DNA from: Antitrichia curtipendula
Taxonomy: Eukaryota > Streptophyta > Bryopsida > Hypnales > Leucodontaceae
Length of the DNA stretch: 64,000 nt
NCBI GenBank assembly: GCA_951230915.1
Contig: OX579635.1
Span: 12,648,001 to 12,712,000 of the forward strand
Reading direction: 5' to 3'
How positions within the stretch are numbered: the stretch's first letter is position 1; each line of letters starts with the position of its first letter. The notes below the pieces were generated by a model. That model was not told the DNA's origin and did no database searches. It saw nothing but the letters and a program-made list of their open reading frames with translations. Of the stretch, positions 18,722 through 51,170 are shown piece by piece. Made by a program: the position numbers and the translations under genes.

Positions 18722-19233
18722 ATTTAGATTGTAAAATTTAAATAAAAACTATCATAAATAAAATTATAATAAATACTTTTTTTAAATTGAAATATATGTT
18801 CATTGCATAAATTTTTTTTATGGAGTCCTTAATCTTCAACTAACTTTTTAGTTTGGAATCTTAATCTTGTAAGGGTGAAAAAAACTCATTTTTTACCTCA
18901 CTTTCTTTCAATAGTTTTTAAATGTGTGTTAATATGGAGATTTAGTTTTGCCAAAATAATTAAATTTCTGAGGTAATATGATGACAAGGGCACTTGAGTG
19001 CCTGCAGATAAATATCTGCAAACAATAGATTTATGCAATGGAGTTAAGACAACTCCACTTCAATGACTAGTGCATTAGAGTTAAACACATGTGTATTGGA
19101 ACTTGGAGTCAGATAACTCCACACAGTAGATCTAGATGTGGATACAAATTGATGATGAAATCTAGCCTTTTGGAAATAGTTCAGATGGGGGTAAAGTCTT
19201 TTGTATTTTCTTGGAGCAGATCCTTATGTGTAG

Positions 19234-19521
19234 GCAAGAAACTGTTATCTCCATTATGTGAAGAGTGTGGTACTACCTTAGAAGGGGTACTACAAAATTT
19301 TGTCACTAATGCAGAACACCGAGAGGAACATGCCTAGATGTGCTACAAATCATGATGCAATTGGAGGTGCCATTGTTGAAAATTACCGGAGAGATTAGTA
19401 GAGCAATCAATAGCAAGGTCAATGGAGGAGCAAGACGTAAAGGATTTTCAAGGGCCCGCAGTAAGAGAAGCTATACGAACACATCCTACATCTAAAACTC
19501 CAACTTATAACATGATTTTTT
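19234..19521 (+). pseudogene. Truncated zinc-ribbon accessory gene in copy 1
   Basis: The 5' part of the same gene that is intact at 23436 and split in copy 2. The exon follows a CAG-to-TAG-like acceptor (TATGTGTAG). The start ATG of the other copies is CTG here (CAAGAAACTG versus CAAGAAAATG). The zinc-ribbon CEECGTT is readable, then frameshifts appear; homology stops abruptly after CTTATAACATGATTTTT. The sequence that follows is an unrelated AT-rich repeat. It sits directly downstream of the transposase, its expected place in the element. Confidence 0.8.
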
Positions 19522-22500
19522 AGGTCTCAATTTATGAACCTTTAAAGGACCATTGTTCCAAGGACAAAAGGGATTTTGGCTAGGAACCTAACGTTTCATT
19601 CTTTTCTTGATTCGCTAAACCTTTTCTTGAAGATAGAAAAATTGATTAGCTTTGTGGGAAAATAATTTTTTCATTCAAAGCCTTGGAATAAAAGTTTTGC
19701 CCAAATAAGCTCAGAACATGGGAGAGGGGCCAACAAAACAATTTGAAAAGTTTGATTAAATTTTTTTTTCTCTCATAGATTATATTTTTGTCTACATGGA
19801 AAGCTTTGATTTATTCCATTTGGAGTTGTTGTGAGAAAGAAATGAACAGTCATGATTTAGAGGCAATAAGATATCTTCTTGAAATAATATCTTGGAGGAT
19901 CCATTTTTGAATGTTGAAATTAGAATTCCACCTTAGACATATAAATAATTTAGATTTTTATTCTATCTAGTACATACGCCTATTCAAACAATTTTTTTAA
20001 GAACTAAGATTAAGCTTTCAAGAATATTTTTTTGTAAACTCTTAACTAAAATTCTCCACCATAAATATATATTTCAGCCCAAAATATGTAGTGCAAGAAT
20101 TTAAAGATAAAAAGGTTTAAAGGCAAATAATCTAGTTGCTCAATGTGCTGGAAAACTTTTTGATAAGTGTTTGATAAAGAAAAAATTGGGACATCATCAC
20201 GCTCGTTTTGAGCTTCAGAAAGCTTCTATATTTTAATAATTTGATATCAACTATGAATATATTAATAATTCTTCCAAATTTCAAAGTCATAAAAAACTCA
20301 TACAAATAATTTATCACATTTGGATTATTTTTAACAAAGTTTAGAAAAGATAGATTTTAAAAATTTTCTATTAATTTTTGTTGCAATGCCTATAAATGTT
20401 CTAATCATTAGAAAGCTAGACTACAAAATGATTAGGGCAATAAAAACACTATATTCCTATTGCTTCAATGCAGTTTAAAGGTCATTGTATAAAATATATT
20501 TTGATGTTATTTGTTTGATGAATGACAGAGAATCCTTCTTGTGTGCGACAAAATTGTAAGTACTCATTCTCCGGGGGGGTTTTGTGAAAAGGGGAGACCT
20601 TACACAATAGTTTGACTTCCAATATACGTTTTTCTAATTTTTTAGCCAATTATTTTGATGTTATCCAAAGGGATGACTTCCACAGTCACGAGTCCGTCCT
20701 GTAACCCCTAAATGTTCAAGACTTGTTTTTGTCTTCTTGAAATTTGCTCTTAATTTAACAAAAAGCCAACGTTTGGATAAGTTGAATCAATTTTTTTTGA
20801 ATTCTAACCCATACAAAATCAAACTAGACATGCTAGAGAGCACATACAAAAAGAAAACATGACAATATCATTTAAATATATCACATTTAAAATGTTTGAT
20901 CATGAATGTGTTAAAACTAAAAAAATATTTTAGGTAGTCATTTTTTCATGTTTTAACTTAAAAAAATTTCAACGAAAAGAATATGAGGATGTATGGCCTA
21001 ACATACGTAACTCCAATCAATTTATGGTTTCTCAAAATCTACTCTATATTTTTTTTAAATGAATTTCTACTGTGAATTTTTCTACAAGATCTAGTGTATT
21101 TCAGGCTCATTTCCAATAGCTCGCAACACTACGAAAACTGAAGATTGCAATGTGCACCCTGCATCCCCTAGTCATGTTCTTCATCATAAGCCTTAAAGGC
21201 TCGAGGTAGAACATTTAAGTGTCAACAAAACTTTGAAGTTGAAGACCTAATTGAGTTTCTATTTTTACTAATTTATATTTTTGAAAAATTCTTTTAAAAT
21301 TATAATTTCAGCATAAAAAATCCATCATTGAAAATGAATGATTATAATTTTTCTGGTTAAATTTTTGTGCAAATTGTGGCTTTGACCCACCAAACCCAGC
21401 CTATAGATTGCTACAAACAACCACTACAAACACCCCTTGCAACAACACACCCTCTTCGAAGCTCAAAACCTACTACAAGAATGCAACAACTTATCCTTCC
21501 ATTCCTTTTAGTACGAATCCACCGGGAGGGAATCCTGTAGAGCGAGGGTTCCAGTCAGGCGGACGCACTGCCTGCACACACCTACCCTGTCATCCCAATT
21601 CTCAGTTCAATCTCAATCCCAAGTACCAAATTTTTTTTCATTTGGTAGTGATGATCAGAGCGAGTGTGTCAGCCAGACGATGTGATCTTCTGTTGCTTTC
21701 AGTTGCATCCCGGGATTCAAGGATTTCGAAGAGATGGAACCCTAGAACTCGAGGAACCCCTAGATTCTTGCACAACACTTAGTCTCTGACACAGAACAAA
21801 AATGAACCGTGACTCGCAACGTTAAAGAGATGTCACCGTGAAAAACGAACAATGAAAACAAACAGATTGGCTGCTGCTGCTCACAAAGACGCCCACAATC
21901 TCGCATGTACCAAGGTGAGATATTGAGGTCAGTTAGAACAAGCTTGCTTGCTCCAGTTGCTTATGTGCTTCATTGATAGCTACGTTAGTGCAGTTGAGTA
22001 CAGACGTACTTACTCTCCAAGTCTGTGTCCGCGTGTGCCGGATGAATTGCTCATGTGTGACTTCGGTGTAGGTTTTTTCCAATTTTGCGCACTGCTTGTT
22101 TCTTCCGCAAGGACAGAGTACTTTGCCTTGAAGTGTACATAGTCGACTGTTGGAGTCGTGTTTGCGAAGGAAAAAGCTCATATCCCCACCTTTCAGTGTT
22201 TTTTTGGTGAGTTTAGGGTTTCTATTGTCCGCCGTTGTTGCTTTTCAAAATTGTGGGAGCTTTTGATCGTCTTCAGGGCTTCGTCATTGCTTTGCTCTCG
22301 GGTTTGATGGTTTCAGATTTCCCTTGTGGGTTTGCAGGAGGAAACTCAGTGCGGATGTCACGATAGGTTACTTAGCTAATTTGTGTGTCACTTAAAAGGT
22401 GCAATGTGCTCCTTTTGGTACCAAGCTTATCGGGAGCTCAGAAACTCTTGTCGTGAAGTCATTGTGTATGTAGAAATGTTTGATGAATTTTAGGTTATAG

Positions 22501-23435
22501 AAATTATAGAAAGTTATTAAAACCTTCTTTGTGCCAATTGGCATAGTGAGACTGTTGGCTCACAGGAGGTTGATGTGAGGATTGCCACTTTGCACTTGGA
22601 AGCTGCGCCGAATGTGGCAAAATTTGCCCTGTGCTTGCTCAAGCTTGTTGTTGGTAAGCATTCTATGAAATGCTCTATTACGATTAATTGTGAATTCTCT
22701 CCGTAGGTGTCTTCAAAAACTTCTGCAATAAATATTATCTGATCAAGAATATCACGTGGTGGCTATTATTTTTACATAGCCCGACAATGAGGTTTTCGAA
22801 TGTTTAACATGGCTGTGAGAGGACATTGAGAAAATTGAAGAAAAGTTAACTTATTGGGCATTTCAATTAACAGTTGAAGTTAGTGACTACGAATTTGATT
22901 CACGAATTCGTCACTGTTTGCTCAAGAGTTGTATAGTAAAGGGATTGAATGAGTGACTTGTTTGCAGAGTAAGTTTGTTTTGAAGTGATTAGTAGCGTTA
23001 TGAAAGATCATATGCGAACCCTTGTTTTAGTTCTTGTGTTATTCTAGCAACTAATGAATCCTTGTTTGTCAATATGGGCAATCTGGGTTATTAGAAATCT
23101 CAAACTAATTCGTTCGTGTGATTCATGCCTCTATAGGGTAACAAATGCTAGTCTTCAGGTCCCAAGGAACACATCCTTTGGATTGTTTGAGTCCCACCAA
23201 ATTGTCACGGTGGGCAAGAGAAACATCCTCTTCTCTTTCAAAGTTGAGAGTGAAGTTTTTTTTTTTTTTAATAGGCAAAAAAATATGTAGACATTTATTT
23301 GGAGATAGACGTAGATTGAGCTTTCAGTGATTGTGCTTGAACTTTTATTTTTTCCTCTTTTAGTAAGCAAATTTAACTATGGATGTCGGGTTTATTTTTC
23401 CCTTATTATTTGTGCTTCTATGTGCAGAAAAAAAA
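19522..23435. other. Repeat DNA and unassigned exon-like DNA in copy 1
   Basis: 19522-21200 is AT-rich interspersed repeat; its start (CCTTTAAAGGACCATTG...GATAGAAAAATTGATTAGCTTTG) is related to 50770-50920 and to 832-960. From about 21400 to 23300 composition becomes more gene-like, with TCTCCAAGTC-rich leader-like DNA and a fragment around 22565-22655 (frame VDVRIATLHLEAAP...) ending in a donor-like GTAAGC. This may be another captured host gene piece; I cannot identify it. Confidence 0.45.
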
Positions 23436-24437
23436 ATGTCGTCTCCATTTTGCGAAGAGTGTGGAACTGATTTTGAGAGGGATACAGCAAAATTTTGTCG
23501 TCAATGTAGGACACCAAGAGGGACATGCGCAGATGGAGCCCAAAGGAGCATGCAATTGGAGTTGCCAATTCTACAGTCACCGGAGATACCAAGAAGAAGG
23601 TTAACAGAAGAAGCGTTGGTGGAGCCAACAGAGGTGGAGATGCAGGAGCAAGACACCGAGGATTTTCGTGGTCCCCTCGCACGAGAAGCTGTTCCGCAAC
23701 ATCCACGACAGAGAACTCCAAGTTACAATATGATTTTTGACCCTCCTTCCTTACCTAATAGAGTAAAAAATAAACTATATGGGAGAAGATGTTTAAAGTA
23801 TGAGTATCCAATTCAACATAAGTGTTATGTTAACAATTATAAGAGGACACATTCATGGATTGATGAAGGTCAATCACTTGGGCATCTCCCTAAGGGTGCA
23901 TTTACTTTAGAAGATCCAATGGTTCGAGATTCTTTAAAGAAAATTATTAGTGAAAATAAGGAGAATTTAATGGATATTAAATTTGACAAAAATAAAAAGT
24001 ATGAATGGAGAGAGGCAGATGTTTACAAAAAAATAAAAAAGAATCTTAAATATCGTAGATGGAAACAGAGGAAGGCAGAAAAGGCTAGAAGTAGTGACAC
24101 TGTAGGAGCTTTTGGAGGGCTCAATATTCCTTCACCATCACTGTCTGTACAGTCGTCTGGGCCTGGAGAGTCTGAACCTCACAGTATGGAAGTTGGAGAT
24201 GAAGAGGAACACAGTGACGACGAGAGTTTTGTAATGTGGCAGTTGAATTTTGAAAATGTTCATGAAATGTATACGGGGTTAAGTAATTTTATGAATGGTG
24301 AGAATGAGATAGCTAGATGTGCCAGAAGAAGAACTTCTTTTCCCCCGAACTGCAGGTCTTTTCCGGAGGGAGACAAATTAATGTTGGTAGCAAATTTTTT
24401 ACGCTCGCAGCGTGAGAGAACTCGTGGAATGGGTTGA
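23436..24437 (+). CDS. Zinc-ribbon transposon accessory protein, intact frame (333 aa)
   Basis: Residues 1-30 form a double CxxC zinc ribbon (CEECG...FCRQC). An acidic linker follows, then a conserved core (NMIFDPPSLPNRVKNKLYG, then KGAFTLEDPMVRDSLKKI), a Lys/Arg-rich helical stretch (KKYEWREADVYKKIKKN; RRWKQRKAEKAR) and an acidic Ser-rich tail. I chose ATG 23436 because a splice acceptor (TATGTGCAG) lies just upstream, as in the other two copies. The core is shared with 32877-33754. A basic DNA-binding-like protein beside a CACTA transposase suggests a TnpA-like role, but I do not recognise a named family. It is more diverged from the copy 2 gene than the truncated copy at 19234 is, so it may have come from another element. 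Confidence 0.75.
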   Translation: MSSPFCEECGTDFERDTAKFCRQCRTPRGTCADGAQRSMQLELPILQSPEIPRRRLTEEALVEPTEVEMQEQDTEDFRGPLAREAVPQHPRQRTPSYNMIFDPPSLPNRVKNKLYGRRCLKYEYPIQHKCYVNNYKRTHSWIDEGQSLGHLPKGAFTLEDPMVRDSLKKIISENKENLMDIKFDKNKKYEWREADVYKKIKKNLKYRRWKQRKAEKARSSDTVGAFGGLNIPSPSLSVQSSGPGESEPHSMEVGDEEEHSDDESFVMWQLNFENVHEMYTGLSNFMNGENEIARCARRRTSFPPNCRSFPEGDKLMLVANFLRSQRERTRGMG

Positions 24438-32876: not shown

Positions 32877-33754
32877 TTATGTTGATGACCTAGCGTTTGG
32901 TGGAAAAGGAAGTCTTCTACTGGCACTTCTTGCTATTGAATTCTCACTAGTTATGAAATTTGACAGTTCTGCATACATTTCATGAACACTTTCATAACCT
33001 AACCGGTGCATTACAAAAGTTTCATCATCATCCTCTTCCGGGTCAACCCCATCTTGAATATTTTGAGGAATGGACTCGGTACACTCTGGAGACTCTGATT
33101 CTCTGCGCTCAGAAAATTGTTCAGGCTGTGCTGTCACAAGAGGACTGTACCCTTCAAATGCTTCTATAGGATCACTACTATTATTGGTTCTGTCCTTCTC
33201 TGCCTTTCTATGTTTGTATCTTTTATATTTGAGATGTTTTCTCATTTTTTTGTACACATCAACCTCTCTCCATGCATACTTTTTATTCCTACCAAATTTT
33301 ATTTCCATCAAATTATCTTTCTGATCACTTATTATTTCTTTTAAAGCATCTCGAACCAAGGGATCCTCTAAAGTAAATGCACCCTCAGGAAGATGCCCAG
33401 CTAATTGACCTTCACTAATCCATGAGTTTGTCTTTTTATAGTTATCAACATAACACTTATGCTCAATGGGAAATTCATACTTTAAACATTTTCGACCATA
33501 TAATTTATTTTTTATTCTATTGGGTACGGAAGGAGGGTCAAAGATCATGTTATAAGTTGGAGTTTTAGGTTTAGGATGTGCTTGTACTGCTTCTCTTACT
33601 GGGGGCCCACGAAAATCTTCAACGTCTTGTTCCTCCATTAGCCCTTCTATTGTTTGTACAATTGCCTCCTCTGTTGACCTTGTTGTTGGCATCTCTGCTA
33701 ATCTCTCCGGTAATTCCAACAACGGCACCTCTAATTGCCTCGTGATTTGAGGCC
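32877..33754 (-). pseudogene. 3' part of the zinc-ribbon accessory gene of copy 2, cut by the 10.2-kb element
   Basis: About 285 codons of the same protein as at 23436: VPLLELPERL, FDPPSVPNRIKNKLYG, GAFTLEDPLVRDALKEI, KKYAWREVDVYKKMRK, then a basic stretch and an acidic tail, ending NARSST at 32877. The 5' part (zinc ribbon) is at 43965-44063. The apparent start is only the first codon after the insertion site. If the transposon and one GCC are removed mentally, the junction is one base short compared with both other copies, so the gene was already frameshifted or lost a base. Confidence 0.85.
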
Positions 33755-33786
33755 ATTAGAAGAAAATTCGGGTCTCCAGATGCCTA
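33755..33786 (+). repeat. Left terminal inverted repeat of the 10.2-kb element
   Basis: Begins ATTAGAAGAAAATTCG. The first GTTGGCAAC motif starts at 33788, immediately inside. Confidence 0.85.
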
Positions 33787-34253
33787 AGTTGGCAACGCAA
33801 TTTTCGTGCTTGGAAATTGCTGAAAATGCCACCTTGCACGTTGCCAACGTGGAGTATAAGGTGATGACGAGGGATTTAGCACCCGTTGCTACCAATGGGA
33901 GTGACGCGTTGGAAACAATATTTTATTGGCGTACCGTTGTCCCCTGTCCTGTGTGTAGGGTTATAAAACGAATTTCCAATTGGGCGTACCAAACGCAGGG
34001 ACTAGTCCCGCATGCGGACCGGTAGTGGAGCCGCGCATCGTTGTCAATGATGCGATGTGTTTGACAACTTGGAGGGAATTTCAAACTTGGCACGGAATTG
34101 GCTGAGCTCCAATTTCAGAATGGGTCCAAACGCGTCACTCGTTCAATGTCACAGTTCCATGCATTGTAGTTCCATGAATTGTGTGGATGCCAGTGTTGTC
34201 GAGTGCTGCCCAAATTGTGTGATCACTGGCAACTCGTTTCCAACAAGTGTTAG

Positions 34254-35785
34254 GTGATCAATTGTGCGTTGGCAACGTCATCAGGAATGGAGAATCGCAG
34301 ACCGCGTTCGGAGGTGGCAGCAGTGACGCTCCACAACACACACAATAACCAGGGAGAGTGGATTCCAACGAGATACGAGAGGTTGTCGTGGGTGAGGTTG
34401 AACCCTGGTAGAAATGGAACTTGGGCTCGAGAGGCTCGTCGGCATGGAGGTGAGAGCATGAGGGGATCTTACAAGGCTCAAATCATGGACTTCCGGTTCA
34501 AGTTTGATGGGCGCAAGACCGTTTCCAACAAGCCGGAATTGGAGTCCGTGTTGGTTAGACATGCTTACCACCGGCATCAAGTGCTCTTAGATCCAGAGAT
34601 TCGCCACGATCGGGTTCCATGCAATTGTGAGAATAGATGGCGCTTTGTTTCCACCTTTGATGCCATGTTGTTCTTGAAAGTTTGATGGCCATCAAAGTAA
34701 ACGTGGCTGGGGCTTTACACTGCTTTGCTAATTTGGTTTGTGGTATTGTCTGTTGGAAACAGTTCTGTACCAATCCTTTTTTGAAGACTGGGTGGACACA
34801 CTTTCTATCCTTGGAGTCATCGTTGTTGTGCACAGCGAAATTGGTGAAGCCACTCGGAATGGGAGGTCCTACAATGAGCTTCTGGAGAATGGGATATTTT
34901 TTTCTAACCTTGTCTATGTGCCACCTACACCAGGGCTTCTATATGGATCAGTTGAGCCACTGTCGTTGCCACCTTTCACTGATCCCGAATGGCCTCTCCC
35001 CGACATGCACACCAGTGAAGCGTTTCGGTTCAAGCTTCGGGCCGATTTCCAAGCTGTCACCAAGGCCACCACTGGAAGCCGCATGGGCCACCTCCAGTGG
35101 TTTATGCCCTTGCATGTATTTGTAGATCTTTTTGCGTGTGAGGAGGAGAGGATGAGACGCACTGCCGTCCTGTACGTTGTCAACAGCCCCTCCGATGAGT
35201 TGTTCACGAGCCTCATGGACGCAGGTTGGCATCAAAAAGTAGTCTTCGGCAAGAACATTGTCAGGTGCACAATCTCAATGGACACTGTAGCCTTCAGGTA
35301 AGGAGACTTTTGTTGCCAACAGACTGTTGCATGTGCCATTGAGAGTGTTTTAGGGTGTAGGGTGCTTGTGAATTGTTGCGAACGTTGAAAACAACCTTTC
35401 TTAGACGTGTCGGGTGTGCTGTAGATACCATGTTGGGCGAGCAACGTTGTACACAAATTTCAAGTACGGCCGAGAGCGTCTGGCGCCAGATGGTGTTAGT
35501 TGGCAACAGATAGACGAAGTGCAGGAGGAGGACATGGTGGTCCTCCCATGTTTGTTTGAAGGTGTGACGGTGGCAAGGTTCCAGGTGGGTCGAACATGGC
35601 CGTTGGCACACATTCGCAGAGAGGTGGATATCACCTTGGGAGGTGTGGTTCCAGAAGACTTCCGCTTCTCTGTCCGTCAGCAAGGGTTTGCAGACATCCT
35701 TGTAAACCGGAGGCAGGAGGGTGCCAACAGGGTAGCAGATGTCCTTCCTCCGTGGACGTTGGAGATAGTGGCAATTACCAACTAA
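34254..35785 (+). CDS. Unrecognised plus-strand gene of the 10.2-kb element (multi-exon)
   Basis: At least three coding blocks. Block 1, about 34287-34685, begins MENRRPRSEVAAVTLHN and contains DFRFKFDGRKTV and VPCNCENRWRF. Block 2, about 34756-35299, probably after the acceptor GGAAACAG, contains FFEDWVDTLSILGVIVVVHS, PPFTDPEWPLPDM and CEEERMRRTAVLYVV, and ends at the donor TTCAG|GTAAGG. Block 3, about 35426-35785, follows GTGCTGTAG in phase and contains LYTNFKYGRERLAPDGVSW and REVDITLGGVVPEDFRFSV, ending IVAITN and a stop. The block 1-2 junction is uncertain. No domain recognised; the pattern suggests a globular alpha/beta protein. It is convergent with the two minus-strand genes and could be the motif-binding or regulatory protein (inference). 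Confidence 0.6.
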
Positions 35786-36010
35786 GTGGTAGAGCATGGT
35801 TAGTTTAGAGAACTATCAATGTCAGTTTTGAGACATTTTAGCACTTACATTCCTACAGGTGCCTCTTTCAACGTCACGTTGGAAACAAGTCGGTTTAGGA
35901 TGATATAGAGTTAGATAAGGACTTATGTGTAAGCAACAACCGTCATAGGAAACACTGTAAGGCTGAATTTTGATAATCAAAAAAAAAATTGGACGTTGAT
36001 AGTTACCTTC

Positions 36011-36164
36011 GTGTTTGGGACGTGTTTCAGACTTGGTTGCCACTCGGTTCATGATGAGAAATGACTGTGTTGGAAACAAAAGAACTCCTCATGTTTGGGA
36101 CGTGTTTCAGACTTGGTTGCCACTCGGTTTATGGTGTTTGTGACTGTGTTGGAAACAAGAGGAG
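36011..36164 (+). repeat. 80-bp direct tandem repeat containing the GTTGGAAAC motif
   Basis: Two units start GTGTTTGGGACGTGTTTC and ATGTTTGGGACGTGTTTC and each ends with GACTGTGTTGGAAACAA. A third GACTGCGTTGGAAACAAG follows at 36221 without the rest of the unit. It lies in the gap between the convergent genes, so motif clusters here are outside coding sequence. Confidence 0.75.
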
Positions 36165-36657
36165 TTCCATTACATCACGGTGATTGTACATTTGACAAAA
36201 TGAGGCAACAACTTCACAATGACTGCGTTGGAAACAAGATGACTCTCATTTCCTCTAACTCTATCATGACTCGTGACTTCCTGTTCCAACAATGCTTTCT
36301 TTTGTACACGTCCATCTAAGTCATATGGCGTGTGTAAACAAGGGCAAATCACAGAAGGGAACTGCATTCATACAAAACATGTTGACAACAGAGATGGGTA
36401 CCGAAAACTTGCGAGAGAGTTGAAGAACTAATGAATGCAAAATCACAATGAAAATATGCGGAAATGCAGAATTTTCATATTCGTGAAAGGCAGGTGAACA
36501 AAAATGATGGAAAGAAGTTTCTGCTTCCTATGACTGTCCTCAAAAACCCATCAGTGCCATTTCAAGTGTAGGCCTGCTAAACATCCACTGTTTCCAACGT
36601 CTACTACTGCCTACACTAGCTTGATGTACAGAAGGCGCTTCTAAACACGACAAAAAA

Positions 36658-38876
36658 TCAAATTTGGTCTACAAGCGCATCCAAAACTTCTGCATCCGCC
36701 GAATCTATGGATGACGAACCCGCTGCCTGAGGCCTGCCAGCAGATCCACCCTCAGATGAAAGATCGACGTGCACTGGTGCGGCAGGCGGGCCCACTGCGG
36801 GAGGTTCACGCGACGTTGCCAACTCCGCCTCCGCCCCATCTGTCGGTGCCAACGGGGTCGCGTTGGCAGCAGCCCCCGAATCTGAAGGCATGGGAGCTTT
36901 GCTTTTGTTGTTGTCCTCGAGCGGCAAAGGTGGTCTTCTTTCGGGCTTCGTCTCCCCTCTGCTTGCAGCTACTGCTTCATTTGCTGTTGGAAACAGAGCA
37001 CATCCCACATGAATATTACCACAACATTGTAAAGAAAAGACAGAATTCCAACAATACAAAAGAGAAGAGCAAAGGTTTGAACTACAGATGTTGTGTTATA
37101 AATTTGAGTGACAATTACCAACTAAGTGCATATAGTACATTACGCTACCAGAAACGTACTGTGAAAGGCTAAGTCTCGCACGGCTGCGTCAACCGCTTCT
37201 GTATAAGGAGATCCTTTTCGCCTGAATGCAAAACAAGGAAGTGCCCAAACGTATTCTCTAGGAGCAACAGGAGAGAGCACTGAATGCTGGGCCTTACCAG
37301 CCAAGGGTGATGCACCTAGCGGTGTCTTTAACAACTTCGGAGCTATTTCACCTTCAGGGATCACAGAGGCTTCCCTCTTCCGAATGCTGACACCATAAGA
37401 AGCCCCCTCACGCGGAACCTCATTCTCGCCAACACAAGTCGGGATCTGTGTTTCCAACGTGTCAAAGCCCCATGCTTCCAGCCACTGACGGTCACCTCCT
37501 TTCTTGCACCTTGGACACACCCGACTCCCCGAAAGAAGTTCAGACCACAAACACCATGGGTGAAACAGGCAACCACATGAGAAGGGCACAGCACCGTTGG
37601 AAACAAACAGTTGAGAGCACAAGCCGCAGGGTGAATCCACTTCAAGAACTGGCTTGACACCCGTTTCCAACGCCTTGTCGTCAGCCAACTTCTTCGGCTT
37701 GATGGAATACTGGCTTGCTCTCTCTGTTGCCAACTGCTTCTGGAGATCCCCCAGTCCTTCCTCGCTCAACCTGAAGGCTTCCTCCAGTTCCTTAAGGCAT
37801 TTGGACTTCTCAAGGACCGAATCTTGAACTTCCTCCAACTTGTCGTTGTTGGCAGTGATGTCCTTGCACACCTCCCGCTGCTCCTTGTCCACCGTTGCCT
37901 TGTCATACAGGTTCTCTGCTGCCGCAAGCTCTCTACTCCGCCTCCGCAAGAAATCCTTCACAGAGTTGAGGCGTTCGTCTTCTGCTTCCAACGTGAAGAT
38001 TGTGCCTTCCAGTCCCTTTAAGGTACCTCGCAATCGGGAAATGCACTTGGATTTGCCCTTGACGTCTTCCGACTTCTCTTTCATCTGCTTCTCCAGCGCG
38101 GCCACCTTGTTCCCAACATTGTCAACGCCGTCAGTGTTGCCAACGGCCTCAACTTCTCGCTGCTCCTGCTCCTCGCGCCCAACTTCGCTTCCAGCGGGCC
38201 GAAGTCCAACTTCCTTTTGGAAATACAGCCGGAACTCCTTCAGAATGGACCACATCTGCTCCCTCAATGCTGGAGGGCCCAATTTCAGGGGATTCAGGCC
38301 CGGATGAGCGAGTCGTTCTTCAGTCAATTGGGCCGCAGCCGCTGCCCAATTCACCTTGTTCCTGCGCCCCTCCTTGTAGAAGTACACACACGCGCGCAAG
38401 AATGTTTGGCTGAAGGCTTTGTTGTCAGGTGCATCGCCATAAACCCTCATGTACATCCGAAGGTATAGATCCCGCGAATTGAGGTCTCTGCACTTGTCCA
38501 AGCAGTACCGTGTCCTGTTCAACCCCTCGCCAGGAACCCAGATGGACTCGTACATGTAGGAGGGAACCATAGCCTCCGTCACCTCCTTGGGCATGATCCC
38601 TTCTTTGCACAATCCGTAAACCCTGTGGAAGAACTCTGCGTCATACACCGCCTTGTGCCTCCCCAACAAGCACGGTGCCAACGTCACCAGCCTCTTCTGC
38701 AACGCTGGTGGAAGCCCGCTTAAATCCAATGGAACCTCCCACGTTCCCCATCCCGGATCGGTGGGGAGAAGCACTTGGTGCTTCTGGGGAGGAGCAGACT
38801 CTGCCAACACTGCCGCCATGAGAGCTTTGCCTTTGACAAGGCTTTTCGAACGAGCTTTCCTGCTTGACGCGCTCAT
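36658..38876 (-). CDS. Coiled-coil C4HC3 RING-type protein of the 10.2-kb element
   Basis: Two exons, 38876-37160 and 36983-36658, joined in phase by GTACGT and TTCCAACAG. ATG 38876 (MSASSRKARSK) is preceded by leader-like DNA. Residues about 70-215 form a conserved-looking helical domain (PTDPGWGTWEVPL; APCLLGRHKAVYDAEFFHRV). About 220-400 is heptad-rich coiled coil. About 415-465 is a zinc domain CGLC...FSCGCLFHPWC...VCPRC, eight ligands in C4HC3 order as in RING-CH/RINGv E3 ligases. The C-terminal exon is Ala/Pro/Ser-rich with VHVDLSSEGG, a possible SUMO-interacting motif. Without splicing, exon 1 would run to a stop at 37140. It is likely a ubiquitin ligase or protein-assembly factor carried by the transposon; substrate unknown. 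Confidence 0.65.
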
Positions 38877-39821
38877 GGTGAGACCTACAATTGACCTGCT
38901 GCAAAGACAACAGGAGAGAAGAAGTGCAATTGGAATGTGTAACCAACAGCGCGAAACTCGCACAAGAGAGAGAGAGAGAGAGCAATGGCAACGTAGAAGT
39001 ACTTTGAAGTTTCACTTGTGCCTGAGGCTGGGGGTTTATGGGGCAAGTGCCTTGCTTATGACGCCAGTAACTCCCAACGTGCTCCATGATGGCACAGCCG
39101 CCTCCTGTTGCCAACGAGCCAATGAGCTTAATGATTAGATGTCGCTTTAGGCCCTAATTGAGTGTTTGGGACGTTACATTATGGTCAGTATCTTATGATT
39201 CCCTCATCCATTGATGGCAACTTGTTTCCATCATGGCCTAATTTTGTGGAGTGGGCACATCACCTCATAGTGTCTCCTGTTGGCACATCATGGACCCCAG
39301 CAAGAGAAGCTGGTACTTCTCTAGGAACCCAGTCATTTTATTTTATAAGCACGGTGCCAACAGGAGATCACAAATTTCTAGGGTCGTGGGTTTAGGGGTT
39401 AGAATCTTGGTTTAGGGTTTTCGGTTTAGGGTCCCTCTTAAGCATTAAAATTGCCTAGGTCTGTGGGATCAAAATGGGTACATTTGACAATTTGTTGGCA
39501 ACAAAATTTGGGCAGTACAAACTTTACATTTCTGATGTGGAAATTTTTCCGCTTGCTGTGAAAATTGGTGGTTTATAGTGATTTTATCCGAAAAAGTGAA
39601 TGATACCTAAAAAAACTTGCAGAATCCTTCCATGAGTGGATATTGTAGTAAAAAAACACTATGGTGTAAATTCAAAGGCTTGTTTCTAACTTCTACACAT
39701 GGAAGCGCCACTAAGTACATTGGTATGTGGCCTCGTTAAATAAACCTCAGCCACCGTCGTTGCCAACGGCCTAAACTCTGTTGCTATGGAAATGGTGCCG
39801 CTGTTTGCTACACCCTCCATT
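38877..39821. other. Intergenic DNA between RING and transposase genes
   Basis: Contains the RING gene leader, a GA microsatellite (38965-38981), and about 0.7 kb of noncoding DNA with motif copies near 39103, 39487 and 39752. No gene seen. Confidence 0.5.
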
Positions 39822-42800
39822 TCAAGACGTCGCCACCCAAGCACGGCCTACTCGTGATCTACCTTCCCTCCAGATTCTAGCTGCATCCATTGCATTTGAC
39901 GTGTTGTAGGCCGTCCTCTTTCTTGTTGTCGCTGCCGTTCTTTGGGCATCATCTTCCATCGATGTCGCGTTGGCAACGTCCTTCAGTCGTTCCTGCTTGG
40001 CAAACCTGTGTTGTATGTTTCTGTACCAATGTTGGTATTGCTGAACAATGGAGCTTGTTCTCTCTTTAGTGCCTCCATGTTGAGTGTGATGCTGATTAGC
40101 AGCCTTAGCTGCGTGATGAGATTTTTCCATGCCCTGGTTGTTCCAAACAGCGAGACTTCCATACGTTTCCACATACCAAGGACCATGGCGCACCAGATTA
40201 TGCTAGCAAATCACAGCATTCAAGGAATTAGTAGAAGTACGTGTAAAAATGTTGCACTGCGTGAAACGAGATGCCATGAAATGTGTCAAGTTCACATACC
40301 ATCACACCCTGGACCCCCTAAGCTTGTCAAATGAACTTCCCACATGACGGCAAACATTGACTTTGAACTGCAGATGTACGTTGGCAATAGACGGTACTCA
40401 CCATATAATGAGTCACATGGTCTTCCCCGAAGCATTTCAAGTAGAGGCTCCCCCATCTCTCAATTTTACCTTTGAAAGTCTCCCTTTGCTCTTGATCCAA
40501 GGAAAGGCCAACCAAATAAGGGAACACTGTTTCCAACGCCTGCCACATTTCCACCCTGTCTAGATATTGCCTCCCTTGTTGAAGAGTGTTATTTTCTGAG
40601 CGCAAGACATCCTTCCATACTCGATCTTGCCCTGACCAAGTCGATGGTTGGAACATCCTAGTTGCAGTCACACCACTGAGGGAGGGTTTGATGGGGACAC
40701 TGTTGGAAGCGCCACTGAGTACTGGGTCCTTCATGATGCGGACGTTTCCACCGTGAAGACCAGCTGCTGACAGAGTCTTCTCCATATTCTCTATGGCTTG
40801 TTGCTGACGCTCCTCATTCTTCATGTTCCAAATGAACATGAAATGGAGGTGAAGAATTTTCTCCATCATTCGAGTTAACGCATGTAAGGTACAAATATGT
40901 ACCCTCTCAAGTGGAATGGGTAGAATAGGCTTCCACCGTGATTCTCTGTCAGTGGCGAGCGGTTTACATTGCACGTTGCCAGCAAATAAACCTCCATGCC
41001 ATGTATGTTTTCTCCGCCTAGCCTCTGTAGCAGCAGACGCGGCTGTTCCCAGCACTGGTTTTGTCCGCTGTTGGTTACAGTAAATGCATGAGTGTATCGC
41101 GTTGGCTCCATGCTTCAGCCCATACAAACACTTAATTGTCTTCATGTCAGCTGACAAATGCCACTCTACTTTGAAGTCTCCAACACCCTCAACTCTTAAC
41201 AGTTGACCCTCATCTTGCGCTTTGATGAGTGTAGGGAACTGAGTTTGTTGGAACACCCAGTGGAGAACTTCATACGACTCCTTGGCCACCTCAAAGCATG
41301 CGATAGGCCAGATTTCGGTTTCCGATTGGACTGAAAAATATCTATCATCTGTTTTTTGTATGCTGGTGTCTAATGCACGATTCATGAGCGTCAAACTCAC
41401 CCTTTCGAATTTTCTCCCATGTACAATCTCTGCTTCGTCCATCTTCAAGACGAAAATTAAAGGCTTGTTTCCAACTTCTGGACATGCAGGTTCAGTTTCC
41501 AACGTCAGAGCACCCTACACCGCTTGATGTACAGAAGTCAATAAGAAATCACGTTGGAAACAAGTACCGTTTGAACAGGAATGTTTTGAAAAGAAGGATA
41601 TTCACCTTCGGTCGTGAATTGGTATAGCTTCACCATAGTCCTCTGCACCACTTCGATGTCAACAAACAAAGAATTCTTGGGCGTTAGAACCACCCTTGAT
41701 ATGTCTGATTTCTTCTTTCTTCCTTTTCCAGTGGTAACTGAAGGTTGCACCACCAACTCCAACGTACTGTCAATATGGTAATAGTTGCCAACAAGATCCG
41801 TCAACTTTGAATTGAGTTCTGTTCGCAACAAACTGACCTGTTCAACATAGTCCATATTGTGAGAACACCACGTAAGCCTAAACCCACCACTAACATGCCG
41901 TTGGAAACAAGATTTTCCTTATTGAAGTTATGTAAATCGCCCAGAACCCTGAACCCTAAACCAGGTTTTGCGACTGCAAACACGTTACCACCCTCCCTCT
42001 AGCAGCGTTTATGGGGCCCCTGCTATAATTCTGTTTTCCAATGCTCCGATCGACTAGGCTAATGCAAGAACCCTCCAGTATGTCCTATATTGAAATTTTC
42101 CATCGTTTCCAACAAGGCATAGCAATACGCTCTACTTTGAATGTAAGCCCAACTCGTTTCCAACAATGCATAGCCAAAATTCATGGAATGGGAATAATAA
42201 CTTCAAACCTTGTGCGGGTTTGGCAAGAATGTTGGCTTCAAGCGTTTGTCAACGAGCTGCACTCGCCCTTTGATCGTCTTGTAGATCTCACCATATCCTT
42301 TCTGTGACACTCCAGTCATATCGCACGCTGCTAGTATTGCTTCTGTTCCCAACTCCGTCCCAATTTTCTCAAGGTAGTGGTTCGTCATGCTGGTTGCAGC
42401 ATGACTATGTTGCGAACTTGATATCAACGCCAGCGTCTCTCCCTTTGACATCAATAGTCCAATCGCCTGCCCGGTCTCATCTTGGGTATCCTTGTCGCCA
42501 CACAGACGTTTCCTTCTGTTAGACGTCCTGTTGCCAGCGTGTATAGCTTGAACTACCTGCGGTTGCAACAAACTTCGAATTTTGGCTATACGAGCCCTCG
42601 ACGCGCCACCACTCTTCGCTAATTCAACGAGGCCCTTCGATGGTCTTAGTTGTGGTCCTGCTGGAGTCCTGACCATTCTTTCCATTTTCCTTTGGAATTT
42701 CACTATGGACTTTCTTGCTTCCATGAGTTCATGCTCCAACTGCAAGACCTTCTGATGCGCACCTTGTCGTCCTTGTTCGTTCGCCAACTGCAAGTTGTTG

Positions 42801-43567
42801 TTGTGTTGGTCCTCATTCCTGTGCAACTCTTCTTCGACTGCTACACATCGAGCCCTAAAGAAGTCTAAACCGCTCTTCAAAGTGTCAATCTCCTCTTTAC
42901 TTCTTGCAACAAGTTCCTCTGAACGTTGTGCCCAGCTACTGTTGGCAACGTCCAGATCCTGCGTTAGTAACGCAATGGAATTTTGCAAGGCTTCCCTCTT
43001 CCGAATTGCATCAGCTTGTGTCTCCTGTAATTGCCTTTCCAAGCCTTTTATTGAGTCACAGGTGCTAACAAGGTTTCTAGAATATCCTAGGAGTCCAGAG
43101 TCACCGTGACACACAAATTCTAAGCAACTCTTGATTGTTTGAAACGGTGGTGGCTTCCCTGTGACAGGATCTGTTGGGTACAAATTGCCATCCAACCATA
43201 AATCAATGTTGGTGGCTCCAGAATCTCTCAACGCTGGAAACTCTGCTTTTGAGGCTTGCTGATCAATTCGAACCCCTTTCCTCACAATAGGGGCGAATTT
43301 ACTATCCAATATAACAGCTGCTGTATACGAACTACCCTTTCCAACATTGGTAATGTCCTGAAGTGCCATCCTAAACCGAAATCTCTCAAATCGTGTGCCA
43401 AAGCCACCCCAAAACCAGTTGAGGGATGCCAATGAGCCTGTTGGCAACGGCAATGAGGCCAGCTCATTTGGCGGGAAGCAATTCCAACAATTGAGAACTT
43501 GCGAGCATCTCCACGTTGACATTCCCCACATCCCCCAATTCACACGCTCGTCAACTGGATTGTACAT
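39822..43567 (-). CDS. RAG1-like DDE transposase gene of the 10.2-kb element (multi-exon)
   Basis: Exon 1 (43567-about 42210): MYNPVDERVNW start, then a long coiled coil (residues about 170-310). Exon 2 (about 41880-41545). Exon 3 (41514-40402). Exon 4 (40202-39822), joined to exon 3 in phase by ATG|GTGAGT and GCTAG|CAT. Exon 3 has LKMDEAEIVHG (candidate first Asp, codon 41439), then SADMKTIKCLYGLKHG with Asp at 41148, 20 residues before CIYC, then VHICTLHALTRMMEKIL. The exon 3/4 junction gives H-x4-H (40202, 40187) and, 20 residues on, Glu in NNQGMEKSHH (40127). Mouse RAG1 has D708, C727/C730, H937/H942 and E962: spacings 19, 3, 5 and 20, against 20, 3, 5 and 20 here, with GS...W...G.E shared. 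No stop or frameshift seen in exons 3-4. The phases of junctions 1-2 and 2-3 are unresolved. Confidence 0.65.
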
Positions 43568-43929
43568 GTTGAGTACACTAATTGGAAATAGTGGCTTCCA
43601 AATCAGAATTCCAAATCGTGGATTAAAAGATTATAATCCACAATTTGGTACTCGCAGTCAACATTAAAATAGTCACCGAACTATATTAATCTATGTGCCA
43701 AACTCATTGCCCCAAGTGTTGAGTTGCCAACATGGCAAATGTTTGTACAGAGTCCTGGTGCACGGCTGTTGACAACAAGGCGCCACTTGAGTGCTTCAGT
43801 GACAACTCGACCTGTACCGTCCACAGCTCATTGGCGTGCAGGTTTGATGGCAACAAGCGCCAAGTACCCATGATGTTGGAATTGACCATTTTCTAAAAAG
43901 CAAAAAATTATTTTTCAAGCCCAAAGTAC

Positions 43930-43961
43930 CGGCCATCCAGAGACCCGAATTTTCTTCTAAT
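43930..43961 (-). repeat. Right terminal inverted repeat of the 10.2-kb element
   Basis: Read inverted it begins ATTAGAAGAAAATTCG, identical to the left end for 22 bases, then diverges (TGGATGGCC against CAGATGCC). The nearest motifs are GTTGCCAAC and GTTGACAAC near 43724 and 43768. Confidence 0.85.
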
Positions 43962-43964
43962 GCC

Positions 43965-44887: not shown

Positions 44888-45311
44888 TAACCCCTCAAAG
44901 GTATACAATTTTGTATTTTGAATCACTCTCTACTTTGTTTCCTATATGTTAAACAATTTCAAATGATGTGAAATTTCTGAAGCTTGTAGCCAACTTGTCT
45001 AAGAAAAGAATCTATAGAAGCACCACCATTTTGGACATTTTTTTATAAAAAAGTGAGCTTCTGAAGTGCAGCTTCCCTGTTTTTTGGCAGGATCCAAAAA
45101 ACGACTTCAGTGATTTTGAATTCTTATATTTTGCAATCTACGCGGTGGAAATTTCTGAAATTTTTACCACATGTTCTCCAGTCAACATACTACAGAATCC
45201 TATGGTTACATGTGTCAAAAACAAATTTCAAATATATTTTGTACATGTACTAAAAATGGTAGTTCTTGAGCATTTTTAATAAAAACATAGTTATAGAACT
45301 GTAGGAGTTAA
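44888..45311. mobile_element. 424-bp TTAA-flanked MITE, present in copy 2, absent in copy 1
   Basis: Bounded by TTAA on both sides (44888-44891; 45308-45311), with ends AACCCCTCAAAGG and, inverted, AACTCCTACAG. Copy 1 has the uninterrupted site at 18830-18845, where ..GAGTCC-TTAA-TCTTCAAC.. contains one TTAA. The interior matches, inverted, 7075-7180 and 51690-51790. The comparison proves a TTAA target duplication and shows that insertion happened after the two giant copies separated. Confidence 0.88.
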
Positions 45312-45417
45312 GGATTCCATGAAAAAATTTATACAATGAACATATATTTCATTCCCCAAAGAGGATTTGTTACAAATTAATGTACAATAGTATTTATTTA
45401 AAGTTTACAATCTACAG

Positions 45418-48400
45418 CTACAGAATAAGTAATTCGTCGCGAATCTTATTGTCCTCAGTCTCATATGCCAAATACTTGTTTCTTCCTTGATTAGAATTTT
45501 TAAGACACATGAATTTGTGTTTAATGCATTGTATAGGCCGGATACAGGTATCATCAAATGGAACAAAACCACCCTTTTTTAGCAAATGCATATGTGTAAC
45601 GGGGTCCAACATGTCAATGCACTTGTTGTTTTTGTAAAATGTTTGATGTTGGTAATAGTTCGCTGAAAAGTATGTTTCTATATGCATGTTGTGCTCATGA
45701 CTGAATATTTCTATAATTCTAGCTTTGTATGGGGTTCCTGTAATATCATCATTTTCCACAACATCATCACCAACATCATAATAATATTTTTTCAACATGC
45801 AACCCTTGTGGATGAGTATGAAAGGCGCATGGGTGTCATCTAATCCATGTATATGTTGCTTTAAATAAAACCAAACTATATTTGAAGCTTGTTGATATGA
45901 GTTGTTAAGTGGACTAATCATTATGCCCTTTGATTTTGCAATGGCACTGCAAAATGAATCGGACGCTCGCTCCAACATGTTCAACAAATTTTTGCTTTCT
46001 TCATAGATGATGTAGTCAAACAACAATTCAAATGCCACTCAAGACACTGTGCAATATGAGTAAGCCTCATACCTTCTGGAAACATTAGAGCATTGTGAAC
46101 TTCAACAAAAGCTCTTTCCCCTGCTTCCATGCCGTCAGCCTCAGCTGCAATGCATAGTTGAACTTTATGGAATAATGTACGTGCAGTGTATTGAGCAAAT
46201 GTTGCTTCTACATTCTTCTGATTGGTTTTTATATTGTTGTATCTTTTAACTTCCCTCTCATACGGAAAACACCAGAAAACATTGGAATGGCCAAATCGTA
46301 TAACATCTTCTAAGATGTGAGCAGCACCCGCCACATGCTCCAAAGGTCTACTGTTTGGACCATCTACTGCTTCTGAAAGATTGCGCCACTTTTGTAACAA
46401 TTGACGAACAACATGTAGGTCTTCTATGCTCCATCCTTTACCTCTAGTCCAATTGAAAAAGAAATGAGCAATATCAACAAGCAAACGTCCTATCATACAT
46501 CGTGCGCTTGAAAATTGATGTACGCTAGCTTCCAGTTTGTTTAAAATAATAGGTAATACCCACATCACAAAATGTTGACATTCTTATGCAGTATAGTTTT
46601 CATGATCGTTGATGGGATCTTGTGGCCATTGTCCATGTCTTAATTCATATGTGCGCACTTTAGTAACGGAGGTGCAAATTGCATCCACAAGTTCCAGCAA
46701 GGCATGTGCTTTAGGGTGTTGACGAATGTCCTGGAAAACTTAATCATGAAGTTTTTAAAGAGATTTAAATTTGCTACATGCATAATGTCATAGACCAAAT
46801 CTCGCGACAAATCAAATATGTTTAAATAGTAGAGGCGCCACAATTTTGAATCTCCAGTTACTCCAGACTCCATGCTATGTTCGTTTCTAGCCTTCTTGTC
46901 GTTTTTCAACCTTATTAGAGTATCCACACTACGACGTAATTCCTTAGCGGCTCGCCTTTCCGGAGGGTGCACACATTGCCTTTCATTGTTACTATATACA
47001 TATTGGCCATCAACCAACTCTGAATGCATTTTACATCTTCGACAAGCTGTTTTTCCAGAAGATTTCAAACTAGATATTTTACATTGAGCGGGATGATCTC
47101 CAGTCATGAACATGAAGAGTGCCCTTAAGTTAGGCATTTCAGATTGCGGTAATAGGTTGTTGATTCTGGATAGTTGTATTTGCATTGCATTCCGTCTATA
47201 AACAAAGCCTCAAGCTCTTCGACAAACGGTGTTATGAAAGCAGTAAGATTTTCCTTCATTCGTTTTACAATGTAGGGATGGTTGCCACCTAATGGGATGA
47301 ATAATACAGGTAGCAGAGATAAACTTGAGGATGTGCCTGCATTAAGTACATCAATCTCCATAGCCCAACACCCTCGTTGCTTCTTTCCAGATACTTGAAA
47401 ACCATCCTAGTGGCCAGCTAGAGCTATGTTTTGTGGATCCCCTTGTACCATTTTTTGAGGTACTAGTACCTGCCTCTTGCAAAGTTTGCATTTGAATTTA
47501 TAAGACCTTGTTTCCGCTTGCCAATGATCTGGATTGCGTAATGTTTTATATTTCTTTAGAAAAGCACAATATGATCTTTGGCACTTGGTGTTGGGACATA
47601 TAACAGGGAGTTCCCACTCAACCTCCAGGTTCCAAAAGTCTTGGTATTCCCTTATTTTCTCACCATGCCAAACATTGACTATGGATGGAGGAGCTTCATG
47701 CACATTCAACCACTCTGTATTAGCTTTCCACATGGTTAGCATTTCATAGCACAATGTTCTGGAAGCCATGGCACTTGAAAGCTCGTCTGCTATGCTAAGA
47801 TAGTCAAATGCAACCATTTTGAACCTTGAGTTGTTGCAATGTGGGCATGCTTGTGCACACTCAAGACATGTTCTTTTGTCATTGGGAGGCGTACATGAAC
47901 AAGCTATATATTTTTGGCCATCATAACCATCTTCTTCAACAGGTTGTAAAATGAAAGGCTCATGCGAAAATTTTCTAGTGCCTAGGCACATCCTCCATCT
48001 CTTAGGCTGCACGAGGCCCTACCTTTTGTATAAACGAATTAGCGATTTAAGAGATGAAGGGGTGGAAGTAGGCCCCTCTAAGCTCCCATCCCAATCTTCA
48101 GGCATCATCCTAATTAAAGGGGCAAGCCTATCTTCAATGGAGATTCTAGAAGAATCAGCATTTGGATTTGGTAGACCTTCAAAAATTTGGTGTAGTGTCC
48201 AATCTTGTAATTCTAAAGGCATGCCTTTACTGTCCCATTGTGCTTGCATTTTAATAATTTGGTTCTTCATCTTCATTTGTAAGTAAGACCCCCAATCCAA
48301 TGTTGCATCAACCTGCAATGCTACTAGTGGTTGTTCAGGGTCCTCATCTTGCATATTTTCTTCTAGAAATTGCGTTTCATCTTGTAAATTTTGCATAGGT

Positions 48401-48558
48401 TCAACATCCCTCTGAAGTTGTAGTGCAATGTCTTTTTTGTGATGTCGTTGTTGAGTCCTGTAGTTCACAATTTTAAATCCTATTTCTTCATTGCTCAATC
48501 TACATGTACTGCATCTACACTTCACTTGTTTATTGCGACGTGGAAGTCTTTGTGCCAT
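45418..48558 (-). pseudogene. CACTA/Tnp2-type transposase, copy 2, six lesions
   Basis: Nearly identical to 15577-18721 over its full length, with the same start (MAQRLPRRNKQ at 48558) and end. It shares all four lesions of copy 1: the stop before DGFQ, the frameshift after IDGMQ, the stop after ENYTA, and the frameshift near LEWHLN. It has two of its own: TAG for Trp at 48019-48021 (LYKR-stop-GLVQPKRW) and loss of one T in a run near 46736 (FFQDIRQH becomes FSRTFVN). A few substitutions are scattered along it, for example one Val codon lost in the VVVEN run. It cannot make an active transposase. Confidence 0.88.
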
Positions 48559-51170
48559 TATTGAAGAAATGAATGTTCAAAAAGAATATATGTACGTATG
48601 AATGAGCTAAAATATAAAGAAAAATTTATATTATGAAATGGATGGGAAATATAGATAACACAATAAAGAAAAGTGAACATAAGATATATAATTTTTGTAA
48701 ACATATTTATATTAGAAATTTCAAAGATTAATAAAGTAAAAAGTAAAATAATTAAAAAATATATATAGAAAAGAAAAGAAAAGACATTATAATCCTATAG
48801 CAAAAGTAAAATTATTTTTACTTTTTTTATAATGGAGTTATGCAGTAGAATTCGTAGGGCTGCATATGCATGAACTACATCTTATAGAAGACTGATAGGC
48901 AATTTACTTTGATAATTAAGTTGATAATAGCGACAAGTTCTACATCAAAGTATATGGTGAATACAAAGTGATTAACTACGTGGTATTTTGGATTTTAACT
49001 TCTATGGCAGTTGTAATTTGTATGTTGTTATATTGGATACAATATTATAATTTTATAGTCTAAAATGAACCTAAAAACTTTTCATCTTGTAATGGACGCA
49101 TGCAGTAACAAAATGAACCTTTAAAGACCCAAATCTTTTTGTATAAAAACACACTTGAGCTTCCCCTCCTATTGCAAAGAGAATAAAACTTTTTAAAATT
49201 TATCTTTGCATAACTAAATGTAGGATCCTATAGTGGAGTAGTAGAAAAACGTATGGAAGAAATTTCAAAAACTTGGACAACATAGTTTGCAAGATATTAG
49301 CATTCAAAATGAAAAAAATAATTTTTTTAATGGAACTTGTTTAATTATATTTGTTGGCTTTGAATTGTTTGACCAAAAATTTAGTACTCTTGATTTTGAT
49401 TTTAAAATTGTTCTTAAAAAAACAAGGAAAAAACACATAATTTTTGTTTATTTTAATTTTGTTCTCAGTGGTTTCTCAAAATTTCTAATTTACGAAAAAA
49501 CGTTGTTTGGTCCTGCACAGGTAAATGCACACTTAGGTAATAGGTCTAGAAATTGCCCACCTAAGAGTTGAAACTAAATATTGGAGAGGCTAAGCTTCTT
49601 TGAAATAATTTTCAGTAAATTTGTATGGAAAGAAAAGTGGAATTGGCATTGAACCCAAGTTCTTTCATTTGTTTTGAAGCTTCGTGGAATTAGTTTGTAG
49701 TTTTGAAGTTGAAACGGCATAAGGCTCTAGAATTGTACATTGTTTGTACATTACTGAAGGCTATGTGCAAGCAACATGCACAAGCAGTGTACATTTGAGG
49801 ATTTGGGCGACTGTGGAGGCTAAACGATTTCAATGCATGTTACCTTAGTTCCATCATAGAGCTATTAATGATTTAGCTTGTTATTCAATATTTGACCTAT
49901 TTGTACTTCATAATTACTCAAAGAATGCACATTCAGTTTTTTTATGTTTAAATATATTTCCTACACGTAGAACAAAATTTTATGAAGTAAAATATTTTAC
50001 TTTTAGAGCCCAAGGAATAAAGTACTTGAATGTCACAAACATGGCAAGTTTAGCCCTGTCCAACACAAAATTTGAATTTGTGAAAATACAAAAGACTTTA
50101 GTCCTACGTAAACTATGGAAATGAAGTCCTTAGCTCTTTTATGTTTAGAAAACCGAAATTGCATTGAGAAACTAGCATACAAATTAAAGATGAAATCCTT
50201 ATTAAGTGAATTGAATTTAAAAAAATTTCCAATTGTTATATCTTTTAATGAATCTACTAGAGTACGTCTTTCAAATGAAAAAACTTACTATTTTTTAGAT
50301 TATTGAATATTATTCTTGAATTCTAAAAATAAATATTTTCAAGTCTCCTTGTAGGCTATATTTTTTTGTTCTCTATAATATGTCAAAAAATTAAATTTAA
50401 AATGCATATAAAAAATATAACAAAAAAAATCATATTCATGCTTGAATAAAATAGTAAGTACAAAGAAGTAGAGCATGATTCAAAATATTGAATTGCTAAT
50501 AATTTTGTTATTTGAAATTGACAAGTTCCAGGTTTAAAGATTGTAAAAATGCAATACATAATCAATATCCAAAGGTTTTATTATTTTCTTGAAGTTGTTG
50601 AACACTAGATGACATAAAAGTAGTTCAAAGTTCATTTTAGAGTAGAGAATTTGTAAGTGCATGCAAACTTGAACTCCTCGTAGTTGTCATTTCTATAATT
50701 CAGATGAAGTGATTCATAGCTTTACACATCCTTATACATCTGGGGAATCAAATTGAAATTTTTTATTTCTTAAGTCCTAAAAGAGTATTATCCTTTTGGA
50801 GGGACAAATGGAATTTTGGACAAGTATATACGGTCTCAATGTTTGTCCCGTTTTTTTTAAACTATCTATGGCCAGATAGAAAAATTGATTAGCTTTGTAA
50901 GAGTATAATTTTTTTCCAATTGGTGTACAGTATTTGAAGTTATGCTCAAAGAACCAGTAAACAAGGGAGAAATTGTAGCAAACCAAAAATCAGAAATTCA
51001 AATTATTTTGTTACAGAATTTTTTTCTTACAACTTATATTTTTTCCAACATGTTAAGCTTTGATGCATTCCATCTGGATTTGTTATGAGAAAGCCACGGA
51101 CAATCTTGTTCTGGAGGCAATTAGAGGAACTTCTTCAAAACAACTAGTAGGACTCAGTGAATCATTTGTA
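48559..51170. other. Noncoding left part of copy 2
   Basis: 48560-49320 matches 14830-15570 of copy 1 inverted (transposase promoter side). Beyond 49320 it is AT-rich repeat DNA. 50767-50920 (GATAGAAAAATTGATTAGCTTTG) is related to 19530-19700. No gene seen. Confidence 0.55.

Follow-up and report, generated by a model that had tools for sequence, protein, structure and literature searches.

A probably recently active transposon of Antitrichia curtipendula with a predicted RAG1/Transib-fold transposase and insertions without apparent target-site duplication

The element and its transposase gene

An element of 10,209 bp, bounded by terminal inverted repeats, lies within a 64,000-nucleotide stretch of Antitrichia curtipendula DNA (Bryopsida; assembly GCA_951230915.1, contig OX579635.1, positions 12,648,001 to 12,712,000). 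This whole stretch is called the window here, and all coordinates refer to it. The element encodes a transposase with a predicted likeness to RAG1, the antibody-gene cutting enzyme behind antibody diversity, which is itself descended from a transposase. The extent of the element was established by comparison of 14 copies with both ends, and the predicted gene model of the transposase has four minus-strand exons that encode 1015 residues and a stop:

33754..43962, no strand assigned: whole element, 10,209 bp, ends CATTAG...CTAATG, flanks without duplication
33754..33776, plus strand: left terminal inverted repeat, perfect core of 23 bp, imperfect to 29 bp
43940..43962, minus strand: right terminal inverted repeat, perfect core of 23 bp
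42209..43567, minus strand: transposase exon 1 (gene model), N-terminal part, likely coiled coil; junction backed by homologue P0004
41606..41837, minus strand: transposase exon 2 (gene model); junctions backed by P0004 and P0043
40402..41477, minus strand: transposase exon 3, with the codons of the first Asp (D1, 41439), the second Asp (D2, 41148), CxxC (41088/41079) and the His of the TLHA motif (40884)
39822..40202, minus strand: transposase exon 4 (gene model), with HxxxxH (40202/40187) and the predicted catalytic Glu (40127)

The junction between exons 3 and 4 (40402/40202) was already described as in phase in an earlier, sequence-only reading of the locus, and is indeed read straight through by three homologues (P0043, P0063 and P0060). 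The other junctions rest on one homologue each (exon 1/2 on P0004, exon 2/3 on P0043). An earlier acceptor for the exon 2/3 junction, before ATGGAC, was rejected because of a frameshift, and the acceptor at 41477 was used instead.

D544, D641 and E915 form the predicted catalytic triad and the C2/H2 pair the predicted zinc site. In the window protein the distances are 20 from D to C, 3 from C to C, 5 from H to H and 20 from H to E, as compared to 19 (D708-C727), 3 (C727-C730), 5 (H937-H942) and 20 (H942-E962) in mouse RAG1 on PDB chain 9jpu; in homologue P0043 the distance from H to Glu is 19 instead of 20. In addition, the window protein and RAG1 have in common the sequence G-S-x3-W-x3-G-x-E around the Glu and G-L at +9/+10 past the second Asp. 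The sequence-only reading had put forward these residues, spacings, RAG1 numbers and contexts, and all of them held on the codons and on chain 9jpu. A BLASTP comparison with mouse RAG1 aligned 34 residues at exactly these positions (35% identity, E 5e-4 in a set of 35 sequences). In view of this match, and of the profile and fold evidence presented below, the correspondence of the residues goes beyond chance.

Copies in the genome

A 13-base word of the element was searched against the genome (400 Mb, 303 contigs) and yielded 18 recurring triplets with near-fixed spacing, plus other single matches. One of the latter (C150) was examined and did not match the element; the other single matches stand outside the count. 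The 18 loci, the window included, correspond to the element at 99.78-99.95% identity. Three of the loci (C111, C108 and C173) have flanks in common, and contig C7 (L017-L019) carries two copies 9,045 bp apart, one of them shortened near a run of 200 N, which may represent a tandem or an assembly join. Since the former three and the latter two may each be a single insertion, the number of distinct insertions is at least 15.

Both ends are present in 14 loci (the window and 13 with different flanks), which all run from CATTAG to CTAATG over 10,205-10,211 bp, in line with the original observation that the ends lack CAC. Between any two of these copies there are 1 to 34 substitutions (median 18). 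The transposase frame is complete in 15 of the 18 loci, whereas one of the remaining three has a 9-base deletion and two are broken off, at a gap or at the end of a contig. Moreover, ten of the 15 complete frames, among which that of the window, encode an identical protein. Considering that the copies are near-identical and that their frames are intact and specify mostly the same protein, we infer that the element has multiplied recently; it is likely a recently active cut-and-paste transposon.

The target site

Comparison of the adjoining flank words of 4-10 bp gave no match in any of the 14 two-ended copies, and the matches at 3 bp (1/14), 2 bp (1/14) and 1 bp (6/14) were about what is expected by chance. 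The 3-bp duplication that had been proposed for the window copy is a coincidence of that copy (GCC flanks the element on either side when its end is taken to be ATTAG), and it is rejected both by the 14-copy comparison and by two empty sites. The latter came from a comparison of the joined flanks of the 14 copies with the retrieved loci, in which genuine empty sites were found for only two copies, that of the window and C6. For the window copy there are two paralogues of the insertion site:

19205..19560, plus strand: empty site 1a, element-free paralogue of the insertion site; joined flanks align with no gap at the junction
23390..23790, plus strand: empty site 1b, second paralogue of the same site; joined flanks align with no gap at the junction

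For C6 the joined flanks are identical to a repeat just upstream at 105 of 117 positions, again gap-free. Two more apparent empty-site spans were rejected, as they were merely 12-base overhangs of the copy itself. Thus, the gap-free alignments at the window and C6 sites imply that insertion neither duplicated nor deleted bases, within the limits set by the use of diverged paralogues.

The transposase family and its affinity

Two overlapping homologue searches (62 and 61 proteins, with about 8,000 candidates scored in each) together gave 108 proteins, mostly of sources with the codes lgn, ena and jgi, and among which one of Klebsormidium nitens and three of the fern Adiantum nelumboides. Many of the 108 rows are fragments, and the motifs recur in them to a varying extent: D1 in 85, ERVSxTLMN in 91, D2-CxxC in 62, VHxCTLHA in 52 and GGxKAR in 49. 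The C-terminal H-x4-H...Glu pattern could be traced in only six, probably because most gene calls split off its exon. In a tree of 72 rows the family is deep and many-branched, with P0001-P0003 adjoining the window protein; the Klebsormidium row and one Adiantum row are long-branched and the second Adiantum row is short, which makes their placements unsure. One of the Adiantum nelumboides proteins, P0104, consists of a POT transporter fused to a piece of the transposase family, which is probably an annotation artefact.

The predicted fold, made from homologue P0043, matched the RAG1 core over 445 residues, with a lead of more than 9 Z units for RAG1 over the P element, and the predicted structure also agreed with the Transib fold. 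The same affinity emerged from the profiles. More specifically, the family profile (29 rows) scored 53.5 against a profile of RAG1, BbRAGL and HzTransib, as compared to 23.8 at most for 200 column-permuted profiles and 19.1 for the reversed one. Against 32 CACTA proteins it scored 20.6, inside the control range (maximum 29.0), and the CACTA profile scored 21.2 against that of RAG1/Transib. In the alignment D2, CxxC, LH, G-x-x-AR, H-x4-H and the Glu are all in register; D1 lies outside the local alignment and was placed unconvincingly by a global one. In addition, one of six family members (P0060) matched the Pfam family RAG1 (PF12940) with 15.8 bits (E 0.0038), under the cut-off of 25. The checks by profile and fold that the sequence-only reading had suggested thus came out for RAG1/Transib over CACTA, the fold being that of a homologue and the profiles being controlled, and they suggest that the transposase is likely closer to RAG1/Transib than to the single CACTA group that was compared.

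A reading in terms of RAG1 only is partly weakened by the CACTA control, the fold of which also resembles RAG1, in a model that is too poor to judge. The two halves of the family profile scored 35.6 and 32.8 singly, below the score of the whole, and the RAG1/Transib template is thin. Against HzTransib alone the profile reached a probability of 15%, and direct sequence comparison with Transib gave nothing significant. The family profile A1 returned nothing from the PDB, its C-terminal columns being mostly gaps, and the core of the window transposase had no match in Pfam.

Other genes, a dispersed motif and the neighbours

Next to the transposase the element contains the following features:

37140..38876, minus strand: second open reading frame, likely a long coiled coil plus, close to the C-terminus, a RING-like Cys/His cluster
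34254..35782, plus strand: possible third gene, with open stretches 34254-34682, 34732-35298 and 35405-35782
33788..43731, both strands: motif GTTGGMAAC, 36 copies (20 with A, 16 with C), coding exons included

The second open reading frame gave only weak matches, mostly to coiled-coil families, in Pfam and NCBIfam. None of the three stretches of the possible third gene had a match in NCBIfam, nor did 34732-35301 have one in Pfam. A match to RAG2 was absent in Pfam for the second open reading frame and for 34732-35301, and absent in NCBIfam, the third gene being scanned as unspliced stretches. The motif GTTGGMAAC is virtually confined to the element, with 36 occurrences versus one in the 53,791 bases of the window that lie outside it, and in 300 dinucleotide shuffles of the element it occurred 0.39 times on average and three times at most. 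Within the transposase it lies in frame at four places, as V-G-N or V-A-N. From its distribution, GTTGGMAAC is a putative binding site of an element-encoded protein, and the candidate binder is possibly the product of the second open reading frame, which has the coiled coil and the RING-like cluster.

Elsewhere in the window, an inverted pair of CACTA-type elements (14699-18832 and 45308-49452) is 96% identical. They encode a Tnp2-like transposase (PF02992 at E 0.0015, under the cut-off) with a C-terminal part that is possibly BAH-like, and have kin in Adiantum and Riccia. Diverged copies of an open reading frame with a weak zinc-ribbon match are found at 23367-24437, 32877-33755 and 19205-19560, and the 10.2-kb element sits beside or in one of these.

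Mechanism and alternative explanations

We consider it probable that the element is a transposon, likely active until recently, with a transposase of predicted RAG1/Transib fold that excises it at the CATTAG...CTAATG ends and joins it to directly opposite positions of the two target strands, without duplication. In such a scheme the element would be released by double-strand cutting at its ends. Both target strands would then be joined at directly opposite phosphates, that is with a stagger of 0 bp, in a concerted and blunt manner, and joining of this kind would leave no duplication of the target. A wider proposal, which we put forward tentatively and rate at somewhat under even chances, is that the family constitutes a third great branch of the RAG1/Transib clan in streptophytes, extending from Klebsormidium to the ferns, that still jumps by duplication-free joining with the help of the element's own GTTGGMAAC-binding protein.

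The element could also belong to one of the named CMCT lineages (ESTA, Lanisha, Chapaev, Mirage, Plavaka or, remotely, EnSpm) and have lost its duplication, which we regard as unlikely. The excerpted text of PMC12730594 does attribute the same C(2)C and H(3-4)H and mostly CA..TG ends to these lineages, and reports fungal ESTA transposases to be RAG1-like by HHpred as well. However, it also assigns them duplications of 2-5 bp, and we found no match to Transposase_21 (PF02992) for the window protein or six family members, and no similarity above the controls to the window's CACTA group.

Slightly less credit goes to the idea that the missing duplication results from end-joining of the excised, blunt-ended element into chance breaks, in the way that RAG signal ends can be captured. 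RAG-type cutting indeed yields blunt signal ends, and insertions without duplication would be accounted for. Nevertheless, end-joining usually trims or adds bases, whereas the 14 two-ended copies are complete at both ends (although the way in which they were picked could miss trimmed copies) and no loss or filler is seen at either empty site. Finally, a KDZ, hAT or other non-CMCT transposase that owes its RAG1 likeness to the general RNase H-like fold is highly improbable, given the lead of RAG1 over the P element and the C2/H2, LH and GxxAR motifs in register with RAG1.

Under the preferred reading, a transposase of RAG1/Transib fold with blunt target joining, the element would provide a recently multiplied non-animal relative of RAG1, with intact genes in many copies, and studies on how V(D)J recombination arose would thereby gain a new outgroup. 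Should the blunt insertion hold, it would also represent a RAG1-fold enzyme with a target geometry that is not described for the clan in the literature covered, through which the determinants of the strand-transfer stagger could be addressed.

Comparison with known systems

CACTA/EnSpm elements have CAC..GTG ends and a 3-bp duplication, whereas the element ends in CAT..ATG and has a 3-bp flank match in one of 14 copies. Their Tnp2 transposase shares D..CxxC with the window protein, with no profile match above control, and the Glu context, read by eye, differs, as the sequence-only reading had maintained. The RAGL transposons (ProtoRAG) end in CAC, make duplications of 5 bp and carry a RAG2-like partner; for TransibSU a duplication CCAGG is quoted (excerpt of PMC4411706). 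The window family has the predicted core fold (445 residues) in common with RAG1/RAGL and, as in mouse RAG1, H-x4-H-x19-E, the Glu context and G-L, but the element is distinguished by its CATTAG ends, the absence of a duplication and a second open reading frame of coiled coil plus RING-like cluster. Transib likewise has CAC ends and 5-bp duplications. The element has neither, and the interval from H to Glu is x21 in the HzTransib chain versus x19 in the window protein. By its ends and duplication the element is outside Transib, RAGL and CACTA.

The family probably represents a streptophyte lineage, as yet without a name, within the CMCT clan (EnSpm, Mirage, Chapaev, Transib and RAG1), ESTA and the like being compared by description. 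According to the excerpted text of Kojima 2025 (PMC12730594), the C(2)C and H(3-4)H of this clan lie between the second D and the Glu, the ends are mostly CA..TG and the duplications measure 2-5 bp; the element differs in the last respect only. The same text describes ESTA as fungal, EnSpm-like members of the clan with TA duplications and a TET/JBP gene, and as RAG1-like by HHpred. The element has the RAG1 likeness and the clan in common with ESTA, yet lacks a TA duplication, a distinction made by description and not by sequence. The Spy transposons (PHIS) also insert without target-site duplication, but with a strong preference for AAATTT and by means of another transposase family (excerpt of PMC4482050), whereas none of the 14 junctions of the element reads AAA|TTT.

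The occurrence of RAG1 relatives in plants has precedents, as plants are reported to have 39 potential Transib-like proteins and a pelagophyte alga to have RAGL (excerpt of PMC9435367). Therefore, while the RAG1/Transib affinity of the branch that had been proposed stands on the fold, the controlled profiles and the weak Pfam match, and its 3-bp duplication does not, the term 'new branch' should be taken as a new lineage inside a known clan, considering these plant proteins and the RAG1-like ESTA of fungi. A search of titles and abstracts, with Repbase and most subscription journals outside it, gave no account of the element or of a duplication-free RAG1-like plant transposon. As far as the literature searches reach, what the element adds to the known systems is its lineage, its lack of a duplication and the motif dispersed through it.
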